From NCBI GenBank assembly GCA_950295325.1, contig OX485809.1:19546144-19610143 (forward strand): DNA of 64,000 nt. Direction: 5' to 3'. The translations under genes and the position numbers were made by a program. Source of the stretch: Polytrichum commune. Taxonomy: Eukaryota > Streptophyta > Polytrichopsida > Polytrichales > Polytrichaceae. The notes beneath the pieces were generated by a model. The model was not told the DNA's origin, made no database searches, and saw only the letters and a list, made by a program, of their open reading frames with translations. Shown here in pieces: positions 7,102-64,000 of the stretch. Position 1 is the stretch's first letter. Each line of letters begins with the position of its first letter.

Positions 7102-9828
7102 TTATGTCAAAATCCATATACACTCACCATGAACATAGTATAGGGTTGAGAACTTACACAGAGATCTTCAAGAATCATACTTGCATTAGAATCATACTTG
7201 CATCTTCTCCCTCAGTCAACACCTAACCAGACAAAAGTATCATGGTGTTAATTAAGACAAGTATTTATACCTCAAGCTCAATAATAAATCGATCAGTAAG
7301 CAGTTGGTGCTTTTATTTCTATCAAGTACATGGGGCAGATTTGTTCATGAGTGTTCATAAGGACCATACAAAAAGCAAGGTCCACTTTGTACTTCTGCTA
7401 AAGCCTTTGGAAGTCTTGGTGTCCTGAAGGCTCAGCAAATGTGCCTTTTTGCCATAGTAATTACCCGAAGAATACCCAAGAACCCAATAAGCTGGAAAAC
7501 TCAACTAAGGTTAGCTAAGGTATATATGCGGGTGTTAATTAGTTGATTTGTTTTCTCATGTTTTCCAACTTCTACCGATTAGTTTTACACAACAAAACCA
7601 CGTGTTGCATTAGCGAATCTACGATGAAACATCTGCAAAAACCGGATCGAGAATTGATCCTCCCCTAATTTGGTTATGATGGTCATAAGTGCAAGTTTGT
7701 TGGTTTCTTGACTGGATACATAGGTCCTCCCAATTGTGTTCACTGTTGAGCGTCGAGTAGTTATTAATATTTGAAGGCGTAGTCCAATCTCTCTTGAACA
7801 CACGTGTCTTTATGATGTTTACTCTTTGATCCTCACCGAACTACATACCAATCAAACATAGGGTTCTGATTAGGAAAACGAGCCACTTAAGACCCATGCA
7901 CCTTATGCATCTATTGATAAACTTCAAACTCCACGAGCTTTGTGAAATCTAGAAACAACGCGATCCTCGATGAAGTTACTAAAATGTTATGGTGAGCAAT
8001 GAGCACGAAAACATGATAGAATTTGATGCAATGAAAGCTCAAAACGGATGTCAAAAGAAGGAGAAACTATTTTACACCTCAATGAAGCTCATGGTGGTGG
8101 ATTATGCACTATGAGAGTGCAAAAAAATGAAGGTCGGATGCATTTCGGGCAATGGTTTTCCAAGCGTTTGCAACTTCTCTACAAGAGAGAAGAGAGGCAA
8201 AAGCATTGGAGGAGAAAAGCTTTTCAAATCTTTTGAAATTGTAGATCTAGTGGTTGTTCTAGAAGACGAGTGTGGATCCTCCATTCTAGTAGATTCCAAG
8301 GTGTCCCAATAATGAAATGCGGCACAATGTGAGAGTGTTCTATGAATTCTTTGTTATTTTATTTTTTAATGTCAAAACCCATGATATATGGGAGGGAAAT
8401 GTGACAACAAGGAGTGAAATTTAAACTGAAAACATTTGTTCCCTAGGGTGTCGGGATCTAAGAGAAGATGTGACATTTGAAGGAGGTTGACATTACGAAG
8501 TGTAGGGTGTATTGACTTTGTAACTCGTGCATAAAGAACAAGATTACCTCATTTGAGAAAGAACACCAAGTTCCCTTATTTGCCTTTACATCAAATATCA
8601 CACTACACTAAACAATCCTATTAGCATGGAAATAATTAGCGTGGGCTACACTCACTTTTTAGTCAAGGTGGAATTAACATTGATTCAAGACCCTGGATCT
8701 ACTCCTAAGTCTTCATGAAGACTTTCAAACTACACCTTACATTAAACAAATTAGGCGCCTTACATCAAAAGTAGCTAGAAATATAGAAACCGTCCACATT
8801 GATTTTTTAGAAAGCAAATATTGTAGCCTGTGCTAATTTTTGACTATTGATTTAGGGTGAGTTGAAAATTAATGTGACTTGCATTAATGCTCATTATGAG
8901 AATCAGCACACGCTCAAGAAAATCATTGTTGCTCACAATAATAGGACTATGTGATGTAAATATGAACCTCTTTAATAATTTATTCATCGCCAAACATGAA
9001 TGATCTTTTACATGGGAGGAGCACGTGTAAGCTTAGGGTGGGTTTCCATTAGGGTCTAGTTCAAGAAATTTGAGGTCTGTAAGACACCTTAACCACCAAG
9101 TGCACAAAAGAGCAAAAGAGGTCTTCGATTGTTGTATAAGGACTCTAGGTTTGAGTAGTTGATGTCTTTGTCAAAAGTATAGAAATGCAATATGGGTGCA
9201 TTAGCCTTATGTATCACCGTTGTTTCATAACTATGGCATGAAAGTGATGTCACGTTACCACCGCTTTGTTTTCATACCTTGGACCTAGATCCTAGTGTGA
9301 ACTCCTTGCATCACCAACAAGGTAGACATGCCTAATTCAATTAGTTACTTTAGGGTTAGTGTCCATGTAGGCCGCTCACCCACCTAGGTTTTGGTGGGCA
9401 AGCAACCTACGTGGAAACTCACCATGAACCGGACACTTATATTTGACTGGTGTATGATTTTGGTGTGGTTCCAAAAACATATACAAAAAAGGCATGCGTT
9501 TTAGAAATACTAGACTGCATGCTCAAATTATGGTAAGCACTATAAATTCAATAATTAGGAGAACATATTGTATATGACCCGCTCGACGAGTACATGAATC
9601 CTCACTTTAATAATGGACAAGATATTTATTCAAGCTCCAAAAAAGGAACATGAAAGTGGTTGTGGCCTTGATTTGGTTTTGGTAACCAACTCCTGCTTAT
9701 TGCATGTTTCAAAGCCTAAGAGAATTGGGCTAGGGAGAAAACGAACCATTTAAGACCCGTCCACCTTAGATTAGGCTTATCCTCATGAAGTTTGCAGCCC
9801 ATAAAAGCAAGCGAGGCTTAGCTTGTTG
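7102..9828. other. No gene; worn dispersed repeats
   Basis: About 7560-7700 resembles 33595-33720 (shared TTTTCCAACTTCT and AAATCTACG.TGAA stretches). About 7870-7960 resembles 9735-9830 (AAAACGARCCAYTTAAGACCC). A short relic of the TTAGGGTTAGT... MITE end lies at 9350-9440. No coding or RNA gene recognised. Confidence 0.5.
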
Positions 9829-40660: not shown

Positions 40661-43600
40661 CACTACAAGGGAAGTGGTCCTCTCCCACAGGAAGGCCTGA
40701 CAGAGGCAGCCCTCTGTGTGGGATACATCCACACAGGTAGGAAATTGCGCGCGCAGAATTTTGGAGCCTGGTCGTTCCACGGCAGGAGCGCATTCAATGA
40801 CTGCGCCTGTCAAAGCATGTCCCTGCTGGTCAATTTATGCCGGTGCTCAATTAAATTCGGAGTTGCACATTCATGGGCCCACGCCCCCAAAATACGCACG
40901 GTGTCCCACCCGAGGCATTTACTATTAGACAGTCGTATACGTAGATATACATAAAGGTATGCATTTCATTGGATTTTGGTTTCTTTAATTTCCGTTGTTC
41001 CTTTTGCGTATTGCACAGTCTGTACTTTGTGTAGTTGCCTTGAGATTTTGGCTGTATTAATTCTTTTTAAGTACTGGAGCCTGTATACGGTGGCATGTAT
41101 CTAGTACGTGCACAAAGTATACATTTCCCGTCCTGCTACAATGCGGGGGTCCAATCTGCAGGTGCGATCGCACTAGAAATCGTGCAATTCGGGTATACAA
41201 TTGTCCATTGTTCGTTGGATAAGGAGCATACATTGTTTGCTCCCACCGTTGTTGCAATTTACAATTTCCGTTGTTTCCAATTTCATTGCATATCATTTCA
41301 ATGTTTGTGTGCATTCATGTTTTTCTTTCCTCTCCTAACCCTCCTGCTTTGCTACACCACTCTACCAATATTTGCCTCCTACCTTTACCTTTGTTGTCTA
41401 CAACAACAACAACCCTATACCCCTGCCACCTGCTATGCGCTTGCAGGAATGTCCGCGTGTGCTACTTGCATATGTCTGCACTGTGTTGTTATTGTTGTCG
41501 TGTTGCACACGCCTGCTTTGATGTAGCATCCTTGTGCTCGTGCTCCACGTAAGCGGCGCTCGAAGTAGGCGCCCCCCCTCTGTTTTCGTATGCGCTGCGC
41601 ACTTTGGTCTTTGTGGATTTGGACTGCCTTCGCGCATTGGACTCCTCCCGGCAACAACCCTTCTCACCCTTCCTGGCTATTCCTGCAACAAGACTCTGGG
41701 GATTCCTCCACCAACTTATTTGTCATTCCCCCTTTTCATAAGCGCATTTATGTGCCCTACACATGCGGTTGTTGGTTTTCGTCCCATGCATGTCGCGCGC
41801 TTGTTTGGGTCATCGCCCTCAATGTGGGCATGCTTGCTACGCTTCCTTGTGTCTGTGCTGCTGGGGGGTGGTTTATTGTCTTCCAGGTGCAATATGCAGC
41901 CTCTGCATGTGTATGTCCATTTACTACAACACGGCTTGGTACCCGCACGACTCCTCTTGCCCCAGGCCGTGCTCCATGTCTGTGCAGCTTATTCTGCGTC
42001 CTCGGGCCTCCGTTTTCAGCACAACACACCAGCCTGGCATGGACTTGTTGTCCGCAAAGAATACCTGCACGAATGGGTGCACATGTCAGGGGGCAGCACA
42101 TGTCTTCCAGCAGAGCAACCACAAGCATTGATGTGCACACACTGGAAGAATCGGCATGTGTACCTGGGATGCAAATGCGGGGAGCAAATATGGTGTCGTT
42201 CTGTCCCGGGGTCTTGCGGCGAGGATTGCCAACCAGAACCCATGGTCGTATCTGCGTAGCCTTGGCCTCAACTCGCTGTCTTCTGCCACCCATGACACAT
42301 CCATCAACACTATGCCCTTGTGCGCATAATTGAGCACCACAATGTCCTTCAATATGCCCACTCTTGCGAGCTGAACCTCTGCGCGGTTCTGCGATGAGCC
42401 CTCTCCGTTTCCACGCACGGCTAGCACCCCCACTCCCGAGTCGAATGTCACGTGCTGCTCGCCTTCTTCATCTAGCTGCACCATGTAGTGGGATCCAAAT
42501 GAAGTCATGCTCTTGAACGTGCATGCCCTCCTGGAAGGGCCTGCAGCCAGTGCCCTCAGCTCCTCCCCCCACCTTCTGTCTCCTACATGTCTGCTCTCAC
42601 ACTTCTCCCGTAGCCAGGTTGCGAATGCCACCAAGCTTGGTGTTCCTTCGGCCTCCTGTCTGTATTGCCTGTACAAGCATACGCAGTTCGCAAGTCAGTT
42701 CTGCTGTTCGCCGTGTTACTGTGTGCAGCACGTGCACTGCACAGAAGTCAGTGGGTTTTCCTTACCTGCGCATGTCCTCAGTGCTGGCATGCTGCATGAT
42801 AACATACTTGTGTGCTCTTCGCAACTCTGCCGCGGAGTAATTGACCACATGTCCGTGGCCCTCCACAACCGAGCCCCTCAATGACATCTCCTCCGCAGAC
42901 TCCCACACGTGTCGTTTTGTGTGCTCCTGCAAATTCAAGTACTCCGTGCAAAATCCAAGTGCCTCCTCTGCTGCGTACCCATTCGCAATTGATGCCTCTG
43001 GATGTGCCTTGTTTCGAACATACGGTTTTAGGGTCCCCAAATACCTTTCGCATGGATACATCCACCTCCCCCCCACCGGCCCGCACATCTCAAGGTCGTC
43101 CACCAAATGTATGAGATTATGCTCCATGATGTCGAAAAACGACGGTGGAAAACACAACTCCAAATAGCACAATGTCTCTATAACATAAAGTCTTAGTGCT
43201 GGAATGTCGGCCCTGTCTATGACACGTGCGCATATACGATTCAGGCTCTTCCCCAGCCTTATCAGTGTTGTCCTCTGCAGCGGCTGCAGCAAGGTTCTGC
43301 TGACTGTAGGTATTATTTGTTGGATTAAGCAATGATAGTCGTGTGACTTTAGACCCATGAACATGGATTTCGGTAAATGTTTTCCCAAAGAACTCCCATA
43401 CCCTGTTGGCGTTCAGATGGCACTTACCTCTGCTATGAACATTTTATTCTCTGCCTCTCTCAGCACGTACGGTGCTTGCGGTTTTGTGTATGTCAGCCTG
43501 TTGTTTGCCGGTCTCAGCCACAATTCGCGCCTCATTCCCATTGCCTACAGGTCCCTCCGTGATTCTGGGGTGTCTTTTTCTCCAAAGAGGAATTTGAGCA

Positions 43601-44231: not shown

Positions 44232-47200
44232 TCATTCAACGTGGGTTGCTTCTTCTGCGATCCGAGCAAGGTTGTCTTTTGCAAAAATTATGTACTTTTG
44301 AGGGATGGACACTGATCCACTATGATTTTTCCGTGGTTTCCATGCTATGAATATGGAATCTGTATCTACCCAAGATGGACCGTGCTCAGAATCCACCTTC
44401 CACCGAAAGTTAGGGTTTGTATCCCAGCCTGTATAATGCCGAATCACATCTTCATTCCTTGCCGTCGGTCGGTAGTACTCCACTTGTATTTGTCGAAAAT
44501 GAGGACTGGAAGTTACAAAATTGGGTTTGGACAAAGCTCTTGCCACCCACACTGGCTTCACATATGTCTCGTCTCCAGGACGCAAAATGAGCATATAACC
44601 TTCATGACAATCCACTGCAATGCGGAAAGATGGTGGCGGACGACTACTAGCAGGCCCCACGTAATGGTCGTCCACATCAAACTCCTCTCGAACCTCTCCA
44701 TTTCCCAAAAGACTAGCCTCTGAAGCTTGTACATCGACTCGTGTTTGTGGCCAAAATCCATGCCTCAAAGTATGAGGGCTATCTTGGTGGAGGTCTACCA
44801 AAGCGGCACGAACACGTGTCCAATAATGTATCCAACTCCCATAACGATGCCAACATGATCCGCCAACATCCGCTATCTTCAAACTCTCCCAATATTGTAT
44901 GAAGCCTGATATACCTTTCAAAATATCCTCCAAATTCTTCATGGCTATTGGCTTACAAGGGCTAGGCTCCCCATCCGATAACATGGTCTTCCCATCCGCA
45001 TCCACGCGCCACACAAGAAGACCCTCCGGCGGGCTCCAGTCTTGTGTTGTGCACAACAACTTGTATTGCATGGCCAGGACACCATCGTCACGCATGTAGA
45101 ACCGGAATTGTTGTGCCTTCATATGCCCGATCAATCGGTGAGCTCCACTTCGAATATAAGGTTCTATAAATGCCTTGAAGTCTGGCACCTCCTCAATCAT
45201 ATGGGGGATGACGGGAACGTTCTCCAAATCCATGTACGACTTCATCAATAATGGGATTGTAGGAAAATCCTCCTCCCGCAACTTCATGCTCCACCGCCCA
45301 AAAGATGCATCAATATCATCGTGCGTGTGGCCTACCAATAGGAAGGACACAAAAACCTCCTTGAAAATGCCTTTCGCAACCAACAACGACCAATATGCAA
45401 ATACATATCTGCCTTTATTGTCCTTGGCACAATTGTCCAATTGGACACGCAAAGTTGGAGACAACTTCTTGGCAATCACGGGTTCATTGGGTGGCTCGGG
45501 CAACGAATGCAAACATACATCTTTTCCATCCAACACCGCTTCATATAAAGGTGTTGAACCCGTGTTCTCAAATAACAATCCTAAAGAATAGGCTGGTGGT
45601 TTCTCTAAATCACGTAAAAGCCTTGCAAATGATCCTATCGTGTGGTTTGAATCCGTTGGATACAAATCAAGAGCATAATGAGCAAACTTGACATCACCGT
45701 GTCCATGTGCAATCATTCCTGCAATGCCAACCCAACGTGATTAGCATCTATGTATGAATAAACCATTATGAAGGAATCCATGTTCTCCAGTACATCACGG
45801 AATAAAAAACCATAACATTTAGGGTATGTCATGACATTGTTTCGAAGTTCACCTGTAACCGATACAGGCAACTTAAAAAACCCATCCGTGGCCTTGATTC
45901 GATTTGCAAAACATGGGGAGGTTGTTTTGGCATGGTCCATTTTGTCATGGATGACCGTAAGAACCTCCAAGGGCCTGGAGATGGACAAAGCTCTATTTGT
46001 GTAGTAATCATTACGGTGTGCCTCTTGCATGTTTACGTGCTTGAAATAGTTCAATTGATGCGCTGCATATGACTCGGTACCCATCGTGTGTGCATCCCGG
46101 AGGCGCTTCAACTTCTCGCAATTAGAGCACCTGGCAAATTTGTCCCCTCGTCTTTTTGTAATGTATTCGCTAAAGTTTTGTTTCTTGATTGCACTCAATT
46201 TTGACAATGAAATTGGCTCCAACCCAATCTTCTCGCCAACTGCATTAACGTCCAACAATATGTCTTTCCATTTTGTGCCTATGGGAAGAACTTTCTCCAC
46301 AACCTTTTCACCGGTTGTGAGTGTGCGTGTTTTGTGTGGCATTGCATCAGCAAGGGGGACAATGATGGTTGCTAGAGTTGCCGTTGCTTGCCTTGTTGCT
46401 TCCCTAGGTTTCTTTAAACCCTCGTTCCCATGGTGACGGGACCGGCGGCCTTCCTTGGCATAAGCAGCTTGTCTATAGAAGTCCGCCTTTGACACACCGT
46501 GAATGGTGTACCATGCCTTACAACACACGTCTATGCTTTCAATGGTGATTACCTTGCGACCCGTTCCATTCACATGTATTGCCCTATGGACATCAAGTTT
46601 TTTTGTGGATCTTAGACGAAAATCTCCAAGCCACATTTCTTCACGGATGGCCTTCAATTTATCCCTTGGAAACAATTGGCAACAACGATGTACACAACAA
46701 TCCTTTGTGGCAACTTCTCTTATGGACTCCTCCCCAAGCAGCCTTTGACGTTTACAATCAGTTGCAGATGGAGAAGGACGTGCCATAGTATCGTACTTTC
46801 TTTGACCCTTGCGTGGCCACATGTTTGATTGCATTTCCTTTTCGAGTTGCATGTGTCGTTGCTTATGTTCACGCAAGCTAACTCCATCAGTCGTGACATT
46901 CCTCAATGGCCACCTGCGGAGGGAGAACCTATGAGTGGGATCCACCTCAGAAGGAACGAGTGACTCCAATATGACAATCCCAACGTCCTCGGTGCCAAGT
47001 GGATTTTGATCAATGCAATCTTGTGGATGGGTGTTACGACAAATACCCTCCGCCACAACAACCCCACTGTCATTAAGAAGTAACACATCCAAATTCACCC
47101 ATGAAGCTCTTGAAAGCCCGACACACTCTGGAATGGGACAGTCCGGTACGGAACGCGAAGGTATATCGAAATGCTCTTCATCTGAACTCTCATCCATAGT

Positions 47201-47392
47201 AGCCTCCCCGACAATGTCTAGCTCTTCCTCAGGTGCAGATGGCCAAGTGGCCATGTCTTCTCCAGACGAATACCCTCTTCCAGTATACCCATCCATTCTG
47301 CCTACACACATGAACATGGAACCTTGTAAAGAATTGACAAAAGCTATAGGGTCCAATAGAAAAACACGTACAGAAACCTTATCATAACACAT
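44232..47392 (-). CDS. DUF7869-like transposase-type protein, two exons
   Basis: Exon 1 is 47392-45853 and exon 2 is 45718-44232. The 134-bp intron (ACAG|GTGAAC ... TTGCAG|GA) joins in phase 1 to give about 1008 residues, KLPVSVTG|MIAHGHGD. In order: an acidic N terminus, a Cys/His cluster CCVHRCC (about 232-238), CSNCEKLKRLRDA (about 422), IHDKMDHAKT (about 481-490), DLYPTDSNHTIGS, VQLDNCAKDNKGRYVF (about 605-620) and LLVGHTHDDIDASFGRW (about 642-656). The last blocks match the DUF7869 pattern (QLDN..., GHTHEDID). I infer that the Asp residues of MDHAKT, QLDN and GHTHDDID form an RNase-H-like catalytic site. The tail (VEYYRPTA, GWDTNPNF) is BAH/chromo-like. The start may instead be Met at 47296, since the codons before it look like the end of an intron (GTGTGTAG|GCAGAATGG). 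No stops interrupt it, so it may be intact. A host gene of transposon origin is also possible. Confidence 0.8.
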
Positions 47393-47487
47393 GTTGTATG
47401 AATATTATATCAATGGGTTCCAAAAGGATGGAGCGCACAACAGTTTGTTCAGGATCCGTCTATGCACATCCCCATTGTGTGCATGAG

Positions 47488-48072
47488 GGTGGGTTTGGGT
47501 CGAGCGACCCAAACCTCGTGACAGGATGGGCATGCTAATCCAGGCCCAACCCGTGACAGGGGTGGGTTTGGGTCGCTCGACCCAAACCTCACAATGGAGG
47601 TGTGTTTGGGTTGTGCGACCCAAACCTCGTGACAGGATGGGCCTGGTAATCCAGGCCCAGCGCGTGATAGCGGTGGGTTTGGGTCGAGCGACCCAAACCT
47701 CGTGACAGGATGGGCCTGCTAATCCAGGCCCAAACCGTGACAGGGGTGGGTTTGGGTCGCTCGACCCAAACCTCACAATGGAGGTGTGTTTGGGTCGAGC
47801 GACCCAAACCTCACAATGGAGGTGTGTTTGGGTCGAGCGACCCAAACCTCACAATGGAGGTGTGTTTGGGTCGAGCGACCCAAACCTCGTGACAGGATGG
47901 GCCTGCTAATCCAGGCCCAACCCGTGAGAGGGGGTGGGTTTGGGTCGAGCGACCCAAACCTCGTGACAGGATGGGCCTGCTAATCCAGGCCCAGCCCGTG
48001 ATAGGGGTGGGTTTGGATCGCTCGACCCAAACCTCACTATGGGGGTGGGTTTGGGTCGAGCGACCCAAACAT
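47488..48072. repeat. Array of alternating hairpins upstream of DUF7869 gene
   Basis: Eleven palindromes with arms GGTTTGGGTCG and CGACCCAAACC around a 2-nt centre start near 47492, 47565, 47607, 47677, 47750, 47788, 47828, 47867, 47938, 48010 and 48049. Centres are AG in most and CT in three. Spacers are either about 15 bp (TCACAATGGAGGTGT) or about 49 bp. The long spacer contains a second hairpin, GGGCCTG-CTAATC-CAGGCCC, flanked by CGTGACAGG direct repeats. The array begins about 90 bp from the ATG, the position expected of promoter or subterminal transposase-binding repeats. Confidence 0.9.
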
Positions 48073-52225: not shown

Positions 52226-53949
52226 CTATTTTTTTTGGGCGGCTAAGTCTTTTTTTTTGGCGGCCTCCATGGCTCTAAAAATCTCAGGCCCACGACTGTA
52301 TCCTTGTGTGTTGCCTGGACAAGAATATGTGTCGTTCTTGCATATTTCAGGACGCGCTCCCGAATTGTACGAGTTGGTATTATAAGTAGAATACGAGGGC
52401 GTTTGCGAAAGGGAACGTCTTGCGCTTCTCCGGAGGGCCAGACAACGATCGGACTCGGAAGATGCGGCCTTGAGGGCGTGCCTTGGCAATGACAAAGTCG
52501 AGGAGGGTTGGCCACCAAGCGAGCAGGGAGCCACCTGCCAAAAAACACCATAGGAAGATAATAATAAGAACGGAGTGGGGAAAATGGGGAAGGGCGGTTT
52601 GAGATGGGCGCTCGTAAACCTCTTGGCACGCGGAAACAAAGAGGAAAGCAATGGTGAATATGGGTTTAGGGACAAAGAAGGGCACCTTGGATTTGGTGAC
52701 ATCGATCCCGGGGACGATGGGGGCGTCGAGGAGAGCATACGAATCCGGTTGAATTGCGGCGTTGTTGAGTAATGTGGGGGAAGCATAGCAAGGAGGGCCA
52801 ACGACCGGGGATGGGTTTGCAGGAGGAGGAACGGGGACAACGGGGGAGGGATCGCACCGGGTTGCTTCCAGGTGGAGACGTCGGCTCGGCCCACGACGAG
52901 CGACGGCGTCGTCCCTCGAGGGCGACACATGCCCCAAACGAATGAGCGTCTGCTTCTCCTTGGATAGGGGGGAGGGCGACGGGGCGAACACGCGGGGGAC
53001 AACCCTGGGGGGCGGGCTGTTGACAACACCATCGTCGACGTCGACGTCCCGGGAGTAGTCCATGGCCGAGGCTGCATCCACCGCCGAGAAGTGATAGAGT
53101 GAGGGGACCTCGGACTCCGGGACGTCGCGGGAAGGGGAGCGTGGGGACAAGGGGGGACGGGAAAGGCCATCGAGGACGGGGGCGTCACATACGGGGGGAC
53201 ACTATGGGCAACAACAACATCAACAAGAACAAAGACATCCAAAAACGGATGAAACATTAGATACGTGAACCACATGATAACAAACATGAAATGGAGATAT
53301 TTCAAATCAATTTATTAAATTTTGCGAGCCTCATGATGCTCTTATATACATTATCGCGGGGGCTTAGCCCCGCATTGCCGATGGGGTTGGACCTAACAAA
53401 AAAGGGGATGCTACCGGCGTGGAGCACAAGCCTTCTAAGGTAAGGCGCTAGAGTCTCGATCAAAAATGTGTCCTTCCTATCGCCGGTCCACGTTTCGGGA
53501 AAGATGACGTTTCCCGGGGGGTTCAAAACGCTCTTAGCGGGGTTGTCGTCGACGAGGAGGGTGTTCTCCGGAGTAGGCCACCACCCGTGGGGTGTCCCCT
53601 GCAGCCGGGGGATGCCGCGCCACAATCTGGACCTGAGGACCTTCAGGAATTGCTGTCCTCCGCCACGACCGCCGAACTTCGGAACTGGCAGACCCTTTTC
53701 GTCGAGCAATTCATCGCAGTCCTCTTGCCCGAGGACTAGGCAAGGGCTCGGGAGATCACGGAATAGAAACTCGACGATGGGTTCAGTGTTCTCCATGACC
53801 ATGGAGCTCCACACAACGATGTGAGCTACGTCGAGCACCTCGCGAAGGAAGTCACGCAGGCCGGGACGGGCGCGGACAGCCTTGCGGTTGATGAGGGTGT
53901 TGAGGGGAAAAGCTATTTTGCGAGCGGTGAGCGGTGAGCGGTAAGTTTT
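52226..53949 (-). CDS. FCP1/NIF-like HAD phosphatase, 5'-truncated, three exons seen
   Basis: Exons 53949-53350, 53201-52620 and 52534-52226 are joined by GT-AG introns, all phase 0, and give 496 residues open from the first acceptor (TTCTAG|AAAACT). Exon 1 reads LINRKAVRARPGLRDFLREV, VVWSSMVMENTEPIVEFLF, PHGWWPTPENTLLVDDNPAK and NPPGNVIFPETWTGDRKDTF. This is the NIF/FCP1 fold with motif II (Ser in VWSS) and the DD of motif IV. Exon 2 is Pro/Ser-rich (SPPPRVVPRVFAPSPSP). Exon 3 ends RAMEAAKKKDLAAQKK. The exon that should carry the nucleophile DxDx(T/V) was not found between 53950 and 55527. As it stands the protein would lack its catalytic Asp. GC content is far above the flanks. Captured gene fragment or gene with a distant first exon are the two readings. 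Confidence 0.65.
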
Positions 53950-55527
53950 CTAGAATATTGAAATTTTGTCAGGTGAAACATGCCCTATGGCCGTGGTGTA
54001 GAGCTAACTTTTGAAATATTTATTGACAAATTTATTGACAAAAAGAACCTATAACCGTGGTGGAGGAACCTATATAGTATTTGCTTGCACCTTCTTGGAG
54101 GTTCAGGATATTACCTGACCACGACAATTTCATGACAACCTCTAGCAATTTAGCAAGTAAGATTCCATCTATTGTGGTGAGGGAATCTCCAAACCCCAAT
54201 GCTGCAGGCCTCACACGTAATGCCCATGAAGACCCATCCGTTTGTATGTGTGTGTATATATATATATGAGCATAAACCTAAAATGTTGAAAGAAACTTAA
54301 AGAAAATATTAAAGAAACTGAAAATGTTGGAAGTGTTTACAACATGTTCCTCTAACAACAACACCTTACTATATACCACTCAAATATAGGTGGTTATTTA
54401 AGAAGAGCAATTGTGTTGAACATAAAACCTAGGATGATGTCCATATTTTAAGCACAAGCCTTCTTGGTTTAACACTCAACACAACTAGGAGGTCTCGAGT
54501 TATCATTTAAAAAAAAAATTCTTCACTTTGACTTATTATAACCTTTGCATCTCAACTTCAATTTTGAAACATGAAATAAAAAAATTCTTGGTTCTCAGTC
54601 GCTAGCCAAATGGGAAAATTATGATCCAATCCAATGACCACAATTCTATGTGAACTTGGAAGTTTTTGACATTAAAATTGCATATTCTAACCTCATTTGG
54701 AGTATATCTATGATCATGAGTCTAAAGTAAATTATGTCTTAATAATTAAAAACCTAAGCGATATTAAACAATAAACTTTTTGTCACCTTCAACTCATAGT
54801 ATTGCCATAATGTTTGATCCTTGATTGGGATTAAAGTTTCCTGACACCTACTAAAGGGGAGAGCAAAGAAACTAATTATCATGTAGAACATGTGAATGAT
54901 TGGTCTAAACCCAATTAACACCTTAATCAAGATCAAAGACCTTGAATTATTCTAGTAGAATTAACTAGAGATGGATCTATATGTACTAAAAGTTTGTTAG
55001 ACCGCGTTGAAGTATGCAAGGGGAAGATATTCTTGAGCATACCAATGTCAAGTGTCGTTGGTGTACACTTTAGTCAACTTGTAGACCATTGTGTAATATA
55101 GGTGTGCACTTCATATCATTGTGGAACATACTAATGCTGAGATATTAGTCAAGACACTTGAATGCCAAATTTCATGAGGTGACATTAATGGTGAGGTTGA
55201 TGGTGAATTATTCAACCCAACATTCGCCTAAAATCGTAAGCAAGCATTGAAAAAGTATATGAAAACGATAATAGAAGAATAGTGGAAACCCTTAAATTTC
55301 AAAGAGAAGGGTATGAACTAATAGGTTGATTATGGAATTAGGTGAACAATATCAGAAAACACGAAGTCAAAAGTTAACCTAAATCTGCAATTTTATATAT
55401 GCAATCCCATAAATTCCGAAAGTAATACAAATACAATGAATTTCATGCGGAATGAGTGCACAAACTGAAAAACCAACGGAAGAAAAACCGGTATATTAGA
55501 TAGTACACAGACATTCACATGAAGCTA
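53950..55527. other. No gene recognised; AT-rich
   Basis: Searched on the minus strand for the missing HAD nucleophile exon (D-x-[ND]-G) without success. No element boundary was recognised. Confidence 0.5.
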
Positions 55528-58500
55528 TTACATCAGATCCGAATCACTGTGATCACGTGATGATGAAGACATTCTAGAATCACTAATATATGCATCAGAG
55601 GAGGCCTGACCATCTGATTCTAAAGCTTCTATATCCAAAAACTCTAAAACTCTTCCCGGATGATATTTAGATGTAAAAGTCTGATAAGAACCTCCAGCTA
55701 GTTGATTAGCAATAACATTTGCATATGTAGGAAGTTGCCAAGACTTTGGAGGGCTGGGATAGAATTTAGGGTCACAAAAAAAAGGCCGGTGAATAGGATA
55801 GCTCAATTTATCGCATCTGCAAATGCCAATGGTACCATGTTCATAACTCAACTTTAGAAGAAATGACAGCAAAAAACATAACACTGGTAAGAGAATTTGT
55901 GGACCATACTCACTTAGTAAACCGAGATCTCTTCACAATCCTCTCAACGGGAATATCTTCACCCTCAGGATCCTCTACACTGGTGACACGGTCTTCAAGA
56001 GTGACTTTAGAGGCTGCTCTAGAGATAATCAATGGAGCAAGTACGGCCTCAAAAATATCTACATCAGCCTCTAATGCCGCAATGTGACGGTGCACATTGC
56101 GGCATGCATGAATGGAAGATCCTGCAAATAAAGAAGTTGGAAAAACTTAGTACAAAAACCACTATGAATTTTGTAGAACAAAACAATATTAACAATTAAC
56201 CAACTGAAATGCAAGATTACAAAGACATATCGGTCGCTGCCGTGCAGTCTAGAATAATATCCCATGGGGAGCTACATGCTTCAATTAGCATTTGCATTAG
56301 AAGCACGGACTTTTCACGAGGCCCTCGCCATGGTGTGGATCCATTAGTTAGCTGGTCCTCACGAGAGACCAAGTTCTGGAGAATATCATCCCGTGCAACA
56401 TCCACCCCATAAGGATCCAATTCAGGGACATGGCGAAATGAAAACTTCGATGCAGGTGACCCCGGCACGCTCCTGACCGCCAATGAAATACCGAACCTCA
56501 TGGTCTATAATATACCAGACATAAAGATCAATATTACTTTACAAAGTGAACAACAGAACTGCGTGAGTATAATAGTTAGGTGGGTCTACACTCAGAACTA
56601 CCTCAAGGATGAAATTGAAACTGAATGCGGTGATCAGAAAGAAGACTTAAGCTTTATCTTACAGTTGATGCTGGATTTATTGGAGATGTAAGATGAAGGC
56701 GGTTCATTCCCCACCACTCTTTCCGAATTGCAAAACCATACGATTTGCAATATCCAAGAATATTGGACTTCATACTCATGCGAAAAGGGTGAAACAAAAT
56801 AATTGCCCCGTCGTCGTGCAGATGTTCGTCGGCAAAGTCAAAGAGTGGTTGTAACCACTCTTTCGATTCTTGATTCCAAGCGGGAATGGACGACGGTGGG
56901 TTTGATATGCCAGGAACAGGAAGACCTTCCGGTATATCTGCAAGAATCAAGTCCAAACAGGGATGGTCATCCGGAGAACCCTTGTAGTGCCGGGTTTTGT
57001 CTTTTGAGTGCTGCACAATCAAAGGACAACCAAGTTTGGTGTTAAAATAATCCTCCTTGCTTTGTACATTGCCTAGTACTAGCCCTTATATCAAACATAT
57101 CTATACTCATTACTAACCTTATATAATACACAAATCTAACCTCTTATCAGGTTACACTTGTTACCCACATATCTAACCATAGATCAAAGTACCTTTATGA
57201 CACCCATATTCAACCTCATATCAGATTGACCTTATAACATGCGAATATAACCTCACATCAGATTGTACTTATAACACACATATCTAACCTCATATCACAC
57301 ACATATCTAACCCGATATCAGATAACATATATAGCCCAGATATCTTATCTCCCATCAGATTACAGTAATATCACCCATATTCAACCCCAGTTCAGATAGA
57401 CCTTACAACACATATATCTAACCTTAGATCAGATTACACTTCTAACAAACATTTCTAACATCATATTAGAGTACACTTATAACAAGCATATCTAGATATC
57501 AATATCTACTATGATTGTAGGTAGTAGAGTTTGAATACCAGAAAATGTGTCTCGGGACCGAGACACTCAAACTCGGCCCTGGAAAATCAGAAATGTCTAA
57601 GCTTAAATCAGATTACCCTTATACCCACAATTGCAAACTAACCTCACATCAGTTTGACCTTAATACTAGCATATCTAGACCTCACATCAAATTTCACTTC
57701 AAACACACATGTGTAGTCTCATATCAAAGTACTCTTATACCAAGTAAATCTAGATTTCAATATCAAATATCATTGTAGGGTTTACAGTTTGAATACCAGA
57801 AAATGTGTCTCGGGACCGAGACACTCAAACTCGGCCCTGGAAAATCAGAAATTTCTAAACTTGCCTCATATTACCCCAATACCCAAAATTGCAAACTAAC
57901 CTCATATCATATTGCACTTGTAACCCACATATCTAACCTCACATCAGTTTGACCTTAATACTTGCATATCTAGACCTCACATCATATTTCAGAGAAGGTA
58001 GAATTCAGAGAGGGCGGGGATTTCACTTAAACAGTGTTCCGACTAAAAAAGTTCAAAAATTAACATGACACCTCACCATTCATATTTCAACTCCTAATTT
58101 CCACAAACAAAATGGTACAACAAAACAAATGGCCGATTGCAAGCACAAAACAAATTGCCGAGTCCATTGAGGGCTCAGCTCGCACTCCACATGGTGTTTG
58201 GGTCCCGCATAAACTATACCCTACCAACCTTACTCGTCAGATCCATGATTCGGTCCCGAAAAAAATTATGGCCGATTACTGAAATATGAAAAGTAGTACC
58301 TACTGAATGTTCAATGTGGACCACATTGAAATGCATAAATTTAAATGCAAACATGTTATGACAAAAATTAAGGAAGAGCAGTACCTTGAGCATGAATCTT
58401 TTCAACTCGTTGTAGGAAGGGGTGAATTCCTCCGTGTCACCGCCAAGAACGTCCTCCATTGAGGCGTTGAGAATGAGTTCTTGAATATGGATATCGAGCT

Positions 58501-61500
58501 CCTCCCCCGATGTCAAAATAGGAATTTGACTCCACTGCTCATAGGAGGAATCGCGTTTTGTTCCTCTAGAAAATGTTGGAGCATGAGAACCAGATTCATA
58601 GGTTGGACTTGGAGCAACGGGACTCTTACCTTCTAGCTCAGAATGGGGGTTCATCTTCTTTTTCCCCTTCATGGTAGTCTTCTCCAATGATTTTTGAAGT
58701 TTTTCCATCTCTTTCTGTGCGGCTTTCTCCTCTGCTTCCTTTACTCTAAGCGCCTTCTTCCTATCCTCTTCTAGACGTCGGGATAGGGCCTTTGCCCTCT
58801 CATGCTCGTCTTCTATGCCCTGTAAGTCAATCATCTCAACACTAGATTCTCCAACTGCCTCCCTTGACTTCCTAAGTTCAGTTTCAAAGGAAGGAGTGAA
58901 ACTAGGAGCACAGTCAAGGTACCAACCACCTCCAGTGAGATGTGAGGTTGACCATGTACGCTGTTGATTTGCTGAGAACATGCACGTGGAGTTAGACCTG
59001 TCAAGCCATGCTGAGAGGAATATAGGGAGATCTTCTTTTGTTATTGTTCCTTTTGCAAGGAGCTCGTACTTGAAATACCTGCGGGAAAGACACAGCTCAT
59101 CATTAAATACCTTGCAATTGACATAGCTGCCATATTAAAAACCAAAACACTATGCCAAATCAGATGTCACTAACTAAGCTTATATCATATAACACTAACT
59201 AAGCTTATATCAGATTACCCTCGCATCATATTCCACTTATAACACACAAATCTAACCTCATATCGGATTGACCTTAATACAAGCATATCTAGAAATCACA
59301 TCAAAATGCACTTATAACACACATATCTAGCCTCATATCAGAGTACACTTATACCAAGTATAGGTAGATATCAATAGCAACCATGTTTGTAGGTAGTAGA
59401 GTTTGAATACCAGAAAATGTGTCTCGGGACCGAGACACTCAAACTAGGCCCTGGAATTTCAGAGATTTCTAGGCTTATATGAAACTAGGCCCTAACTAAG
59501 CTTATATCAGGTTACCCAAACTAAGGTTATATCAGACTCCCCTAACTAAGATTGTATCAGATTTCATTACCTAAGCTAATCTCAGATTGCACTAACCAAG
59601 CTTAAACCAGACTAACCTAACTAAGCTTATATCAGATGTCACTAACTAAGCTTATATCAGATATCACTAACTAAGCTTATATCAGATTACCCTCACATCA
59701 TATTACACTTATAACACACAAATCTAACCTCATATCGGATTGACCTTAATACAAGCATATCTAGAAATCACATCAAAATGCACTTATAACAGACATATCT
59801 AGCCTCATATCAAAGTACACTTATACCAAGTATAGGTAGATATCAATAGCAACCATGTTTGTAGGTAGTAGAGTTTGAATACCAGAAAATGTGTCTCGGG
59901 ACCGAGACACTCAAACTAGGCCCTGGAATTTCAGAGATTTCTAGGCTTATATGAAACTAGGCCCTAACTAAGCTTATATCAAGTTACCCAAACTAAGGTT
60001 ATATCAAACTCCCCTAACTAAGATTATATCAAATTTCATTACCTAAGCTAATCTCAGATTGCACTAACCAAGCTTAAACCAGACTACCCTAACTAAGCTT
60101 ATATCAGATGTCACTAACTAAGCTTATATCATATATCACTAACTAAGCTTATATCAGATTACCCTCACATCATATTAAACTTATAACACAGAAATCTAAC
60201 CTCATATCGGATTGACCTTAATACAAACATATCTAGAAATCACATCATAATGCACTTATAACACACATATCTACTATGATTATAGGTAGTAGAGTTTGAA
60301 TACCAGAAAATGTGTCTCGGGACCGAGAGACTCAAACTCGGCCCTGGAAAATCAGAAATGTCTAAGCTTAAATCAGATTACCCTTATACCCACAATTGCA
60401 AACTAACCTCATATCAGATTGCACTTGTAACCCACATATCTAACCTCACATCAGTTTGACCTTACTACTTGAATATCTAGACATCACATCATATTTCACT
60501 GCAAACACACATCTCTACCCTCATATCAGAGTACCCTTATACCAAGTAAATCTAGATTTCAATATCAAATATCATTGTAGGGTTTAGAGTTTGAAGACCA
60601 GAAAATGTGTCTCGGGACCGAGACACTCAAACCAGGCCCTGGAATTTCAGAGATTTCTAGGCTTATATGAAACTAGGCCCTAACTAATGTCACTAACTAA
60701 GCTTATATCACATATCACTAACTAAGCTTATATCAGATTACCCTCACATCATATTAAACTTATAACACACAAATCTAACCTCATATCGGATTGACCTTAA
60801 TACAAGCATATCTAGAAATCACATCAGAATGCACTTATAACACACATATCTAGCCTCATATCAGAGTACACTTATAAGAAGTACCTGTAGATATCAAACA
60901 TTGCTAACTAACCTTATATGAGATTAAACTTATATCAACCATATATAACCTCATATCAGATTTCACATATAACCCTTAATACAACCAAATGTAGAGCACA
61001 CACCAGATTTCACATATAACACAAATTTCTAACCTCATATTAGATTACCCTAATACCTCAAAGTGCATACTAACATCATATGAGAGTACACTTATAACAC
61101 ACATATAGAACTGTAGTATGAAAGGAGAGAACTCACCGAAAGATAACTCTTCGGACAATCAAGTTTGTCCCGTTAAATCCCTCAAATTCGTGAGTTTTGT
61201 TAAAGGCCTCCTGCCCTCGGAAGAATGTGGGAAACGCGTTGTCCCATAATTTCATTCTACAGTCCTCGATGTATGCAACCAAGGTCAAGGGCTCGCTGGG
61301 TAGTGCAAAGTTGATAGCAAGTCTGTCTTGGCGCAAAGTGTCTTCAAATATAATGGAAGCCTGATCGGATATCTGTATATACAGAGAGTGAATATGAACA
61401 AGAATTTGAGCAACATCGATTCATATATTGAAATAACCGTGAAACCAAGAGAAAGACCAATTAATGTAAGGGATCAAATCAAGTAACACCGAACTAAAGG

Positions 61501-63098
61501 GTACATAGGGGATTATGTACTCACTCCTTCCCAAAAACATGCCTTGGCTAGGAATGCCTGCAATTTGTCCTCATTGGTGGGCTTGGTTGGCAGTTTGCAA
61601 GCCTCACGTGTTGATGAAGAGGAATTGAAATATTCCAACCATTTGATTTTACAAGCGGGTGATGCTTTTGCAGTAGCGATCAACTGCAATTTCTCTAAGG
61701 TGAGCTCGGGTGCAATTGAGTTAAGAGTATAGTGACGCGCAATCTGTGACCCATAGAGCAATATATTAAGATCATGGAGATTAATGAATTACTTGAAAAA
61801 TGTAGAATGGGTTTTAAAGTAGTGGACATACCTCCCGAAGCCATCCATCTGTCAAGTTTGGGTTTGCCACACAAACTAGTTTTGACATTTTCTTATGAAG
61901 TGCCTCGGCTCTCTTTGAAGCAGCGACCTTCATGGAGGCTGCTTTTTCAGCAGCAGACACCTCTCCATCCGTTTGTTCAAGAAGTTGACGAACGCCTTCA
62001 TCTGCAGCAAGTGCCAGTTCATGCTGGAAAGGGATTACCATAGTTAGTTTGTAATCAAACAACTGCGACAAAAAGGTGTTATGAAAGTACATAAAAAAAC
62101 AAAAACATTCAAACATCAATTATAAGTACCAAATGTTGAAAGGGATTAGATATAAGAGTAATCACATCATCAAGCATCAACATCACATCATACCTGGAAG
62201 ATGAAGCTCGTGAATACATGTAGATTTAATGAATACCATGTCTTCTTTGAAGTTTGAGATTTCTTGCACCTTTTAATATCAGAGGGAGTCAAAATGTCTT
62301 GGTACTGTTCGAGCGGCATAAGTCCATACTTCTGCACCCTAAATAGAGTGTGAACTGTGTTTGTCTTCACGTGAGAATCTTCCGTATGTCTACAAGTAAC
62401 AATCATATATTAAAGACAAGAACAACATAATATATGTACATAGATGAAAACCTCAAAAAATGGACTTAGAAAACTTACTTGTTGATATTATGTATAACTT
62501 GCATAACAATACCAATTTTTCCCTTGATGTCAAGGAGGATGCTATCCACCAAAAAATGCCAAGACTCTTCTGTTTTGTGAAGTCGTTCAATATGGTTCAA
62601 CCAAGCCTGCCGCCTATGGTTCCCGTCACAAACAAAGAACATCAAATTCGTAAAACCGGCTAACTCTGGAACGGACAGAAGAAAGGAGTTGAATTGTTCA
62701 TTTTTGGCACTCCAAATAGGACCCCACGATGCCTTATCAGCCTCAGTAACCTCATGTGTTTTCCCTTCTTCATTTGTTATTGTCACATAAAATACCGAGG
62801 CACCCTCTCTATACCCATGCACAAACTCCTGCTCCAATTTAGCAAGATCACTTGGGAGAGTTGGCCTCACCATAGGCATGGCCAACATTCTGCACAAGGG
62901 AATAGGGAACCTTGAGGAACTCAGGGGTTGGACTCTTAGTCGAGAAATCGTGGCAACAGAATTAAGTTTTTGTCGGGTCCTGATATCATCTTCATCCCCT
63001 TCATATGGATCTCTATCTCCAAGCCCCTCTTCATCCTCATCCTGACCCTCTTCAGAATAGTCTAGAGAAAACAGAGAAATAGCAGGAACATCCTCCAT
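55528..63098 (-). CDS. ParB-like / beta-class amino-methyltransferase-like protein, ten exons
   Basis: Exons: 63098-62479, 62389-62194, 62023-61832, 61743-61525, 61372-61137, 59078-58385, 57010-56663, 56504-56231, 56121-55914, 55816-55528. Phases agree at all nine junctions and give 1091 residues. Near residue 150-170, FFVCDGNHRRQAW matches the DGNHR box of ParB/Srx-type domains. About 572-628 is a charged coiled coil followed by KGKKK. LDLILADIPEG (about 738-748) stands where motif IV (DPPY-like) belongs. GPREKSVLLMQMLIEACSSP and DIILDCTAATGSS (about 916-929) match motifs X and I, so the order is that of beta-class N4/N6 MTases. The tail is Ser/Asp-rich. ParB-MTase fusions are known in phages. 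The start codon could lie further upstream, because an acceptor (TTTTGCAG) precedes the exon at 63114. The eighth intron begins AT instead of GT. Motif IV is altered, so catalysis is doubtful. Confidence 0.7.
57060..58010. repeat. Satellite array in the sixth intron of the ParB/MTase gene
   Basis: AT-rich units of about 20-40 bp (ATATCTAACCTCATATCAGATT, CACTTATAACACACAT variants) carry two copies of a block GAATACCAGAAAATGTGTCT...CTCGGCCCTGGAAAATCAG. Each block centres on the hairpin GTGTCTCGG-GA-CCGAGACAC (about 57546 and 57805). A further CGGTCCCG core is at about 58240. Confidence 0.85.
59140..61110. repeat. Satellite array in the fifth intron, with 476-bp higher-order unit
   Basis: Same satellite as in the sixth intron. 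About 59205-60260 holds two nearly identical units of about 476 bp (GTAGTAGAGTTTGAATACC at 59392 and 59868). Within them AACTAAGCTTATATCAGAT-type units of about 20 bp recur. Hairpins GTGTCTCGG/CCGAGACAC lie near 59420, 59895, 60315 (one arm changed) and 60608. Confidence 0.9.
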
Positions 63099-63113: not shown

Positions 63114-64000
63114 CTGCAAAATATATGTACTAGTTAATCAAGGAGAGAACATGAGCTCAGCTGCCATCAGTTATAAGTGTATGTGGTATTGTTTGACCAT
63201 CAAAAGACATGTCTCGGGACCGAGACACTAGTACTAGGCACAAATATTCAACTCATGAAATAGTGATCCTTACATCGGATCACCCTCTTAGCTCACATTG
63301 CAAATTTACAATATATCAAATTACACTTATATTAGGTTACACTTATATAAGATTACACTCATATCAGGTTACACTTATATCAGATTACACTTATAGCCCC
63401 TAAAGTCATAGTGAGGTGGAAGAGTTTAATAGTCTCAAATAGTCTCTCGGGACCGAGAAACTAGAAATCAACTCTAAAATTCAATTTCAAACCTACCTAT
63501 CCTTACAGATATCAAACCTTAGATCAGATTACACTTCTAACAAACATTACTAACATCATATCGGAGTACACTTATAACAAGCATATCTAGATATTAATAT
63601 CTACTATGATTGTAGGTAGTAGAGTCTGAAAACCAGAAAATGTGTCTCAAGACCGAGACACTCAAATTCGGCCCTGGAATTTCAAAAATTTCTAAGCTTA
63701 CATCAAATCACCCTTATACCCACAAGTCCAAACTAACCTCATATCATATTGCACTTGTAACCCACATATCTAACCTCACATCAGTTTGACCTTAATACTA
63801 GCATATCTAGACCTCACATCAAATTTCACTTCAAACCCACATTTTTGGTATCAAATCAAAGTACCCTTATACCAAATAAATCTAGATTTCCATATCAAAT
63901 ATCATTGTAGGGTTTACAGTTTGAATACCAAAAATTGTGTCTCAGCACCGAGACACTCAAACTCGGCCCTGGAATTTCAAAAATTTCAAAAATTGAATCA
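63114..64000. repeat. Satellite array upstream of the ParB/MTase gene, to window end
   Basis: The same units continue past the first exon. Hairpins near 63210, 63440, 63645 and 63940 are more diverged: arms stay alike while the centre varies (GGGACC, AAGACC, AGCACC). No upstream exon was recognised before the window ends. Confidence 0.85.

Follow-up and report, generated by a model that had tools for sequence, protein, structure and literature searches.

A 64,000-nucleotide stretch of the Polytrichum commune genome (assembly GCA_950295325.1, contig OX485809.1, positions 19,546,144 to 19,610,143; hereafter the window) contains a cut-and-paste DNA transposon whose accessory, or passenger, gene encodes a 1091-residue protein with a conserved GNHR box near its N terminus and a methyltransferase-derived domain at its C terminus. 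We regard it as nearly certain that this gene belongs to the transposon, and we are equally confident in the methyltransferase fold of its C-terminal domain. The introns of the gene and a satellite array beside it carry many copies of a long palindrome. Based on the layout of these elements, we tentatively propose that the protein, which is probably non-catalytic, binds the palindromes of its own element and so counters silencing.

A transposon and its methyltransferase-like accessory gene

A first-pass annotation of the window had described a ten-exon gene joining a ParB-like box to a beta-class DNA-methyltransferase-like domain. As a gene model this description held, in that independent splicing re-derived the ten exons on the minus strand from 63098 to 55528 with phase kept throughout, and the motifs that had been named (FFVCDGNHRRQAW, LDLILADIPEG and DIILDCTAATGSS) are all present in the re-spliced protein of 1091 residues. 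When this protein was compared by tblastn with other copies in the genome, the exons matched in the same order in diverged copies, several of which are incomplete within the stretch fetched, and this agreement rules out a chance fusion or mis-joined exons. The alignment in exon order extends to a subfamily that is approximately 25% identical over residues 440-1062, the copy read having a stop in its exon 1 part. The gene is thus real as a family. The window copy itself may be mis-spliced because its intron 8 has a non-GT donor (ACCG/ATATGT), whereas the same junction, located in six of the ten other loci searched, reads ACCG/GTATGT in all six.

Positions 55528 to 63098 hold only the gene; the element begins at 53905 and extends beyond the end of the window. 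The suggestion that the gene might be transposon-borne was borne out by a sharp left end, inverted ends, 10-bp target duplications and a divergent transposase-like gene. With window positions 53900-54050 as the query (best 40 of 157 candidates scored), 39 non-self matches start at query position 2-6, and the block shared by the window copy and the copies on contigs C2 and C4 ends abruptly. In C2 and C4, the right end repeats the left end in inverted orientation (GGACGAAGCTATTTTGCGAGCGG... versus GGGAAAAGCTATTTTGCGAGCGG...). Both copies that were read at both ends are flanked on either side by a 10-bp target duplication, GCGGAGTTGA in C2 and ATTCATCGAA in C4. For the window copy, a search that passed over approximately 28 kb between L001 and L032 located no right end, and similarity to the C4 copy stops approximately 0.4 kb short of it. 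Mutator-like elements have target duplications of 8-11 bp (PMC6446971), a range that includes the ten bases found in both of these copies, and the duplications therefore fit this superfamily, of which the element is a candidate member. The left end lies inside a reading frame for a NIF/FCP1-like phosphatase (window 53302-53949; PF03031, 3.2e-13), which is possibly the target of the insertion.

Between its ends, the element carries the methyltransferase-like gene, a satellite array and, in divergent orientation, another gene that we read as the transposase. Copies are numerous: the exon 1 core has at least 150 genome matches (best 150 of 933 candidates), many of them 83-98% identical, and two further family searches, whose lists overlap, likewise returned at least 150 matches each (best 150 of 1126 candidates and, for a distant query, best 150 of 1005). 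With hundreds of matches, the family does not bear out the earlier idea of a domesticated gene, and copy number rules out a domesticated single-copy gene. A viral origin was also considered and rejected, as two alignment queries found no relatives in viral contigs, a result that covers the reach of those patterns only.

The putative transposase shows, by eye, a DDE-like D...D...C-x-x-H pattern. A search for its relatives returned at least 150 matches, and because these are the best 150 of 1971 candidates, the relatives outnumber those counted. We entered 130 exon 1 matches, and 63 of them lie within 60 kb of one of 79 close transposase matches; in 54 of these 63 pairs the transposase lies upstream and divergent at a median distance of 8.8 kb, the remaining nine being arranged otherwise. 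Viewed from the transposase, an exon 1 match lies no more than 60 kb from 59 of the 79 matches, against an expectation of approximately 2.3%.

The beta-class amino-methyltransferase domain that had been proposed for the C terminus was recovered by profile searches, with PF01555 matching five of five scanned members at E up to 1 (best 1.1e-7). The window domain falls just below the profile cut-off (26.2 bits against 26.7, E 9e-6), and the divergent family member L036 (contig C1) lies above it at 35.3 bits over profile positions 1-216, motif IV included. The proposed order of motifs, with IV before X and I, also stands: L036 matches the whole profile and the window protein is collinear with it, its DIPEG lying under DIPYG. 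A family profile matched DpnA in the X-I region (8e-6) and CcrM over alignment positions 44-217, with motif IV outside the alignment (0.0096). In a comparison of hidden Markov models (HMM-HMM), the plant methyltransferase domain scored 71 when set against those of four bacterial or phage enzymes, and the highest score among 30 shuffled controls was 20.

Adenine or cytosine-N4 modification, which the first-pass annotation had entertained, is doubtful. Amino-methyltransferases use a catalytic S/D/N-PP-Y/F/W motif, and changing SPPY to APPA abolished the activity of the bdelloid rotifer enzyme N4CMT (PMC8885841). In the family described here, motif IV is D-I/L-P-E-G rather than DPPY in all five aligned members, and it reads NIPEG, DLPEG, NIPEN, QFPDG or DIPDG in other members and DIPYG in one. 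Catalysis is in doubt because this motif has no second proline and, in all copies read but one, no aromatic residue. The domain keeps the cofactor-binding core, but its catalytic motif is altered. We suggest, with modest confidence, that most members of the family act in binding and not in catalysis.

In the N-terminal half, GNHR is invariant within a D/E-G-N-H-R box across nine aligned members; single copies outside this alignment read SNHR (L016), GDHR (L020) and GNHP (L122). A ParB domain, which had been suggested here and for which the GNHR box is the basis, found no profile support. Pfam detected ParB in none of the nine members, PDB profiles included no ParB among six matches at E up to 10, and PHROGs reported ParB in three of the nine (best E 0.051). 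In HMM-HMM comparison with ParB, 14 of the 30 shuffled controls scored as high or higher, and a second run fell below the shuffled maximum. An AlphaFold model of exon 1 alone, built from a single sequence without an alignment, had a mean predicted local distance difference test score (pLDDT) of 40, and a Foldseek search with this low-pLDDT model gave a best E of 0.43 and no ParB in the best 50 rows. Because the box is invariant in the nine aligned members, a fold like that of ParB or sulfiredoxin is possible, and we put a ParB-type fold in this half of the protein at somewhat below an even chance.

Palindromes in the introns and in the satellite

The palindrome has the form TGTCTCGG-NN-CCGAGACA. 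As a perfect 18-mer it occurs 1310 times in the genome, whereas the reversed pattern occurs not once. Within the window, TCTCGGNNCCGAGA with at most one mismatch gives nine matches against 0.07 expected, and all nine fall within the element: two in intron 6, four in intron 5 and three upstream of the gene. The coordinates of these sites and of the exons are collected in Table 1. The 295-bp satellite upstream of the gene is at least 10.3 kb long in the window copy, approximately 0.9 kb in C4 and approximately 5.6 kb in C2, where it is split by an insertion. Of 35 satellite units read, 29 contain TGTCTCGGCACCGAGACA and six differ from it by one to three changes.

Table 1. Features of the element and its accessory gene, in window coordinates
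Feature	Position	Strand	Content or basis
Left terminus of transposon	53905..53942		short terminal inverted repeat GGGAAAAGCTATTTTGCGAGCGGTGAGCGG..., within NIF-phosphatase-like reading frame
Exon 10	55528..55816	-	C terminus and stop
Exon 9	55914..56121	-	remainder of motif I (GSS), motif II acidic region
Exon 8	56231..56504	-	motif X region (PWRGPREK), start of motif I; donor AT in window copy
Exon 7	56663..57010	-	methyltransferase motif IV region (ADIPEG)
Two perfect palindromes TCTCGGGACCGAGA, intron 6	57550..57821		at 57550 and 57808
Exon 6	58385..59078	-	middle region
Four perfect palindromes TCTCGGGACCGAGA, intron 5	59422..60623		inside tandem repeats, at 59422, 59894, 60315 and 60610
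Exon 5	61137..61372	-	splicing, tblastn
Exon 4	61525..61743	-	splicing, tblastn
Exon 3	61832..62023	-	splicing, tblastn
Exon 2	62194..62389	-	splicing, tblastn
Exon 1	62479..63098	-	acidic N terminus with start codon; GNHR-box domain, likened to ParB on motif only
Two palindromes upstream of start codon	63212..63458		strongly diverged flanks, at 63212 and 63445
295-bp satellite array, start	63504..64000		palindrome or near-palindrome per unit; reaches at least 73857 (window coordinates, end of L001)

Where their positions were listed, the sites follow the gene family. Fifty distinct listed sites (of the 1310; all on contig C1) are each no more than 4.9 kb away from an exon 1 or exon 7 match, a cut-off set post hoc at the largest distance, and such neighbourhoods make up 0.6% of contig C1. 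At ten family loci, all 40 palindrome sites inside gene spans are intronic, with exons making up 45% of those spans; one of these loci, L013, has no sites, and another, L014, has four that all lie outside the gene span. Subfamilies carry variants of the palindrome. The symmetric form TTTCGGGACCGAAA occurs five times in L015 and six times in L016, and upstream of L021, which belongs to a 40% identical subfamily, the stretch L025 holds CTCGGATCCGAG, with the same core, three times and once more with a change. The core is found again in L011, L012 and L014, where the flanking sequence does not match. The form TCTTGGGACCAAGA in L013 was considered as a compensated change and was not counted, as it is a single copy that could reflect CpG decay.

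In intron and upstream units, the arms of the palindrome persist where their surroundings have drifted. When repeat units in the window introns were located by their flanks, six of six contained the palindrome, one of them with an outer change, and in eight units outside the array, which were themselves selected by palindrome, differences number 3 across 128 arm positions and 177 across 720 flank positions.

We also observe that the protein is under purifying selection in the exons tested. Ratios of nonsynonymous to synonymous substitution rates (dN/dS), taken from unsaturated pairs with dS of at least 0.2, range from 0.04 to 0.23 for exon 1, from 0.12 to 0.28 for exon 4, from 0.06 to 0.38 for exon 6, from 0.07 to 0.08 for exon 7 and from 0.12 to 0.27 for exon 8; many other pairs are saturated and their ratio is undefined, and the upper values in exons 6 and 8 (0.38 and 0.27) both belong to the L019-L020 pair. 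Close pairs (the window against C2 or L004, and exons 7-8 against L015 or L027) differ by 0-8 changes and are uninformative, with ratios of 0.27-0.84 or undefined. The same comparisons differ sharply along the gene. Between the window and L015, dS exceeds 2 in exon 1 and is saturated in exons 4 and 6, yet drops to 0.03 in exons 7 and 8; between the window and L013, it is 0.24 in exon 1, 0.54 in exon 6 and 1.6-1.7 in exons 7 and 8. Both switches of history fall between exons 6 and 7, which is to say in a palindrome-bearing intron. On this sequence comparison of L013, L015 and L027 with the window, the gene copies read as mosaics whose halves have been exchanged among subfamilies at or near intron 6.

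A second palindrome, GTTTGGGTCG-NN-CGACCCAAAC (a 22-bp site, GTTTGGGTCGNNCGACCCAAAC), occurs at 9231 genome sites in arrays of many periods, against none for its reversed control; its two centre bases vary widely, the arms being fixed by the search pattern. L123, chosen only for its arrays of this 22-mer, contains another multicopy gene with at least 150 matches (best 150 of 880 candidates), and among the matches listed 26, L123 included, are identical over 90 residues, as in a young family. Inspected by eye, this gene shows a DGQHS box and an end like that of a methyltransferase, in which GDCIFNVFGGSKPIFAAM is joined to MSGLNIYSYVEDAD across an intron. In four of four copies read, palindromes are found in both introns and in no exon, so that 30 of 30 sites inside gene spans are intronic although introns make up only 18% of the spans. 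We treat the second family as a parallel to the first and not as a member of it because profiles do not confirm kinship, ParB or methyltransferase. Homology between the two families was not established: their methyltransferase parts gave an HMM-HMM score of 14.2 against a shuffled maximum of 20.7, and their box domains scored 19.9 over 12 columns against 19.1 for shuffled controls. Comparison of the second family with bacterial methyltransferases gave 17.9 (shuffled, 19.9) and comparison of its box domain with ParB gave 17.2 (shuffled, 20.7), and neither Pfam nor PHROGs returned a match. Arrays of the 22-mer are also present at C1:616088-626110 and within the window at 47488-48070, the latter just upstream of minus-strand frames (44232-47404), one of which contains DUF7869. 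A DUF4218 frame lies at 42762-43412 of the window. DUF4218 occurs in other DNA transposons.

What might read the palindromes

The arrangement described above resembles that of VANDAL transposons in Arabidopsis, whose VANC proteins bind short motifs in tandem repeats located in the introns of VANC21 and VANB21 and upstream of VANA21 (PMC5735166). Binding by VANC leads to loss of methylation in matching copies, and the repeats change fast (PMC5735166, PMC10398659). In both cases a DNA transposon has an accessory gene and carries element-specific short motifs in fast-changing repeats, in introns as well as upstream. As described in those reports, the systems differ in that VANC recognizes a nine-base motif in one orientation, whereas the sites found here are palindromes of 16-18 bp and the candidate reader has a methyltransferase fold and a GNHR box. 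The likeness is one of layout, known here from sequence, whereas methylation loss has been demonstrated for VANC; a VANC-like system in P. commune would be convergent.

We propose self-recognition by the accessory protein because the layout is VANDAL-like and the motif is palindromic, a palindromic motif implying a two-fold symmetric binder. The protein, comprising the GNHR-box domain, a long middle region and the methyltransferase-derived domain, would act as a dimer on TGTCTCGG-NN-CCGAGACA, or on the variant of its own subfamily. Sites for it would be supplied by the element itself, in the introns of the gene and in the satellite between the gene and the divergent transposase gene, and many bound copies of the protein would keep this control region clear of silencing marks, such that element copies sharing the palindrome would stay expressed. 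The parts of this proposal are not equally secure. Binding of the palindromes by some element-encoded protein is probable, and the odds that the accessory protein is the binder are close to balanced, while anti-silencing as the outcome is a tentative suggestion. Three points of the proposal are inferences, namely occupation of the sites by this protein and not by the transposase or a host factor, relief from silencing as the result, and the loss of methylating activity from the domain.

Several observations weigh against this proposal. A palindrome is repeated at least three times in 7 of 13 and 1 of 5 gene loci (8 of 18 in all), and none is repeated three times within the stretch searched at the other ten (L013, L017, L019-L022 and L027-L030). 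The near-palindrome TAAATCTAGATTTC occurs 32 times in the same repeats of the window element, and in L015 and L016 the AAGCCTCGGCTT, CCCATATATTGG and AGCCTATAGGCC types are as frequent as the CGG core. Palindrome type does track the N-terminal half of the protein, yet the introns are physically linked to that half. The second palindrome lies also beside a distant copy of the first family (L018) and beside the DUF7869 gene of the window. Within the satellite, the arms show 7 differences in 560 positions, against 230 in 9695 for the remainder of the unit, and 115 of 278 windows are equally or more conserved; because the arms are not clearly more conserved within this young satellite, its counts are not evidence of constraint. 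Finally, the putative transposase has no Pfam match, either in three pieces of the C4 copy or in frames of 705 and 602 residues from two further copies.

Some of these points would suit a model in which the palindromes have no function and spread passively with the tandem repeats. Palindromes do sit in repeats of several periods, alongside other recurring near-palindromes and with satellite arms conserved much like the remaining unit, and the ten loci at which none is repeated three times are readily accommodated. A passive by-product is nonetheless improbable, as it does not account for arms that stay intact in intron and upstream units despite drift at about one quarter of flanking positions, for the same core in L011, L012 and L014 amid non-matching flanks, for the absence from exons of all 70 sites inside gene spans of the two families, or for reversed-pattern controls of 0; in the 22-mer, too, the centre bases vary widely between arms that the pattern holds fixed. 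A rather more serious contender, though still an unlikely one, is that the transposase or a host factor (an enhancer, insulator or replication factor) recognizes the palindromes and that the methyltransferase-like protein acts otherwise, for example by assisting transposition. Under this explanation, the position of the array between two divergent genes, a plausible place for transposase or promoter sites, would be expected, as would a second palindrome that adjoins more than one gene type. It is harder to reconcile with palindromes in the introns of the accessory gene and with the same intron layout in the second multicopy gene, and transposase-binding repeats are usually near element ends.

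Two alternatives remain. An active N6-adenine or N4-cytosine methyltransferase could methylate the palindromes as a self-mark of the element, in keeping with the confirmed beta-class domain, the purifying selection on exons 7 and 8 and the one family member that keeps DIPYG. Sites of 16-18 bp, however, exceed the usual targets of methyltransferases. The DIPEG or DLPEG of the five aligned members and the NIPEG, QFPDG, NIPEN and DIPDG of others also count against activity, given what the loss of SPPY did to the bdelloid enzyme (PMC8885841), and we consider such a self-mark quite improbable. Alternatively, the GNHR domain might load at the palindromes as a CTP-dependent clamp and spread along DNA or chromatin in the manner of ParB at parS. 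Palindromes of 16-18 bp in arrays resemble parS in form, and the box is invariant in the nine aligned members; with ParB lacking profile support and the box not absolute across single copies (SNHR, GDHR and GNHP, as above), this activity is very improbable. We return to an accessory protein that would read its own element's palindromes as our working proposal.

Comparable systems elsewhere and what the system would mean

Bacterial and phage fusions of ParB to N6_N4 methyltransferase (L033, L039 and L040) share with the plant protein an N-terminal box domain and a C-terminal beta-class methyltransferase. In these fusions DPPY is retained and Pfam recognizes the ParB domain; by the tests run, the plant protein has neither, and approximately 500 residues separate its two domains. 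Contigs C10, C12 and C23 (L033-L035 and L038), which are 20-61 kb long, carry genes for ParB and for an N6_N4 methyltransferase that look bacterial or phage-like; on C10 and C12 the two are fused into a single frame. These contigs are likely contamination, and they conveniently illustrate how the bacterial architecture is built. The host genome itself has 58 matches to chlorophyll a/b-binding proteins, which identify it as a photosynthetic eukaryote; 14 of these, with equal best score, lie inside 95 kb at C5:1751760-1846160.

Among eukaryotic proteins, bdelloid rotifer N4CMT likewise has a permuted N6_N4_Mtase (PF01555) domain. As presented in PMC8885841, it has a catalytic SPPY and demonstrated 4mC activity and is not described as a transposon gene, whereas the protein reported here is encoded by a multicopy transposon and has DIPEG. 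Accessory genes related to DNA modification are also known from fungal DNA transposons with TET/JBP dioxygenases (PMC12730594) and from charophyte and dinoflagellate retrotransposons with cytosine methyltransferases (PMC5890265). The enzyme folds differ from ours in both cases, and what these two accounts set out makes no mention of element-specific palindromes. Beside the C2 copy of our element, L006:2588-3997 is a retrotransposon-like frame with protease matches below the cut-off, and its C terminus resembles, by eye, the start of a C5-cytosine methyltransferase. In titles and abstract openings of the open-licence literature, we found no published account of a protein or palindrome system of the kind proposed here.

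Considering both gene families together, we offer the more speculative suggestion that at least two multicopy families may have turned box-plus-methyltransferase-like proteins into readers of palindromes in their own introns. This would amount to a self-recognition code of more than 10,000 sites (1310 and 9231), with variant palindromes by subfamily and with reader and methyltransferase halves recombining at a palindrome-bearing intron. The predicted site is spelled out in the genome (TGTCTCGGGACCGAGACA and TTTCGGGACCGAAA), so that the proposal is open to a direct test with a single purified protein and a single oligonucleotide. If it is correct, transposons would have repeatedly invented sequence-specific self-recognition against silencing, in this instance on a bacterial-type methyltransferase scaffold and not on VANC. 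The system would also supply DNA readers of natural origin whose sites are long palindromes, and it would account for the thousands of palindromes in the intron repeats of Polytrichum commune.

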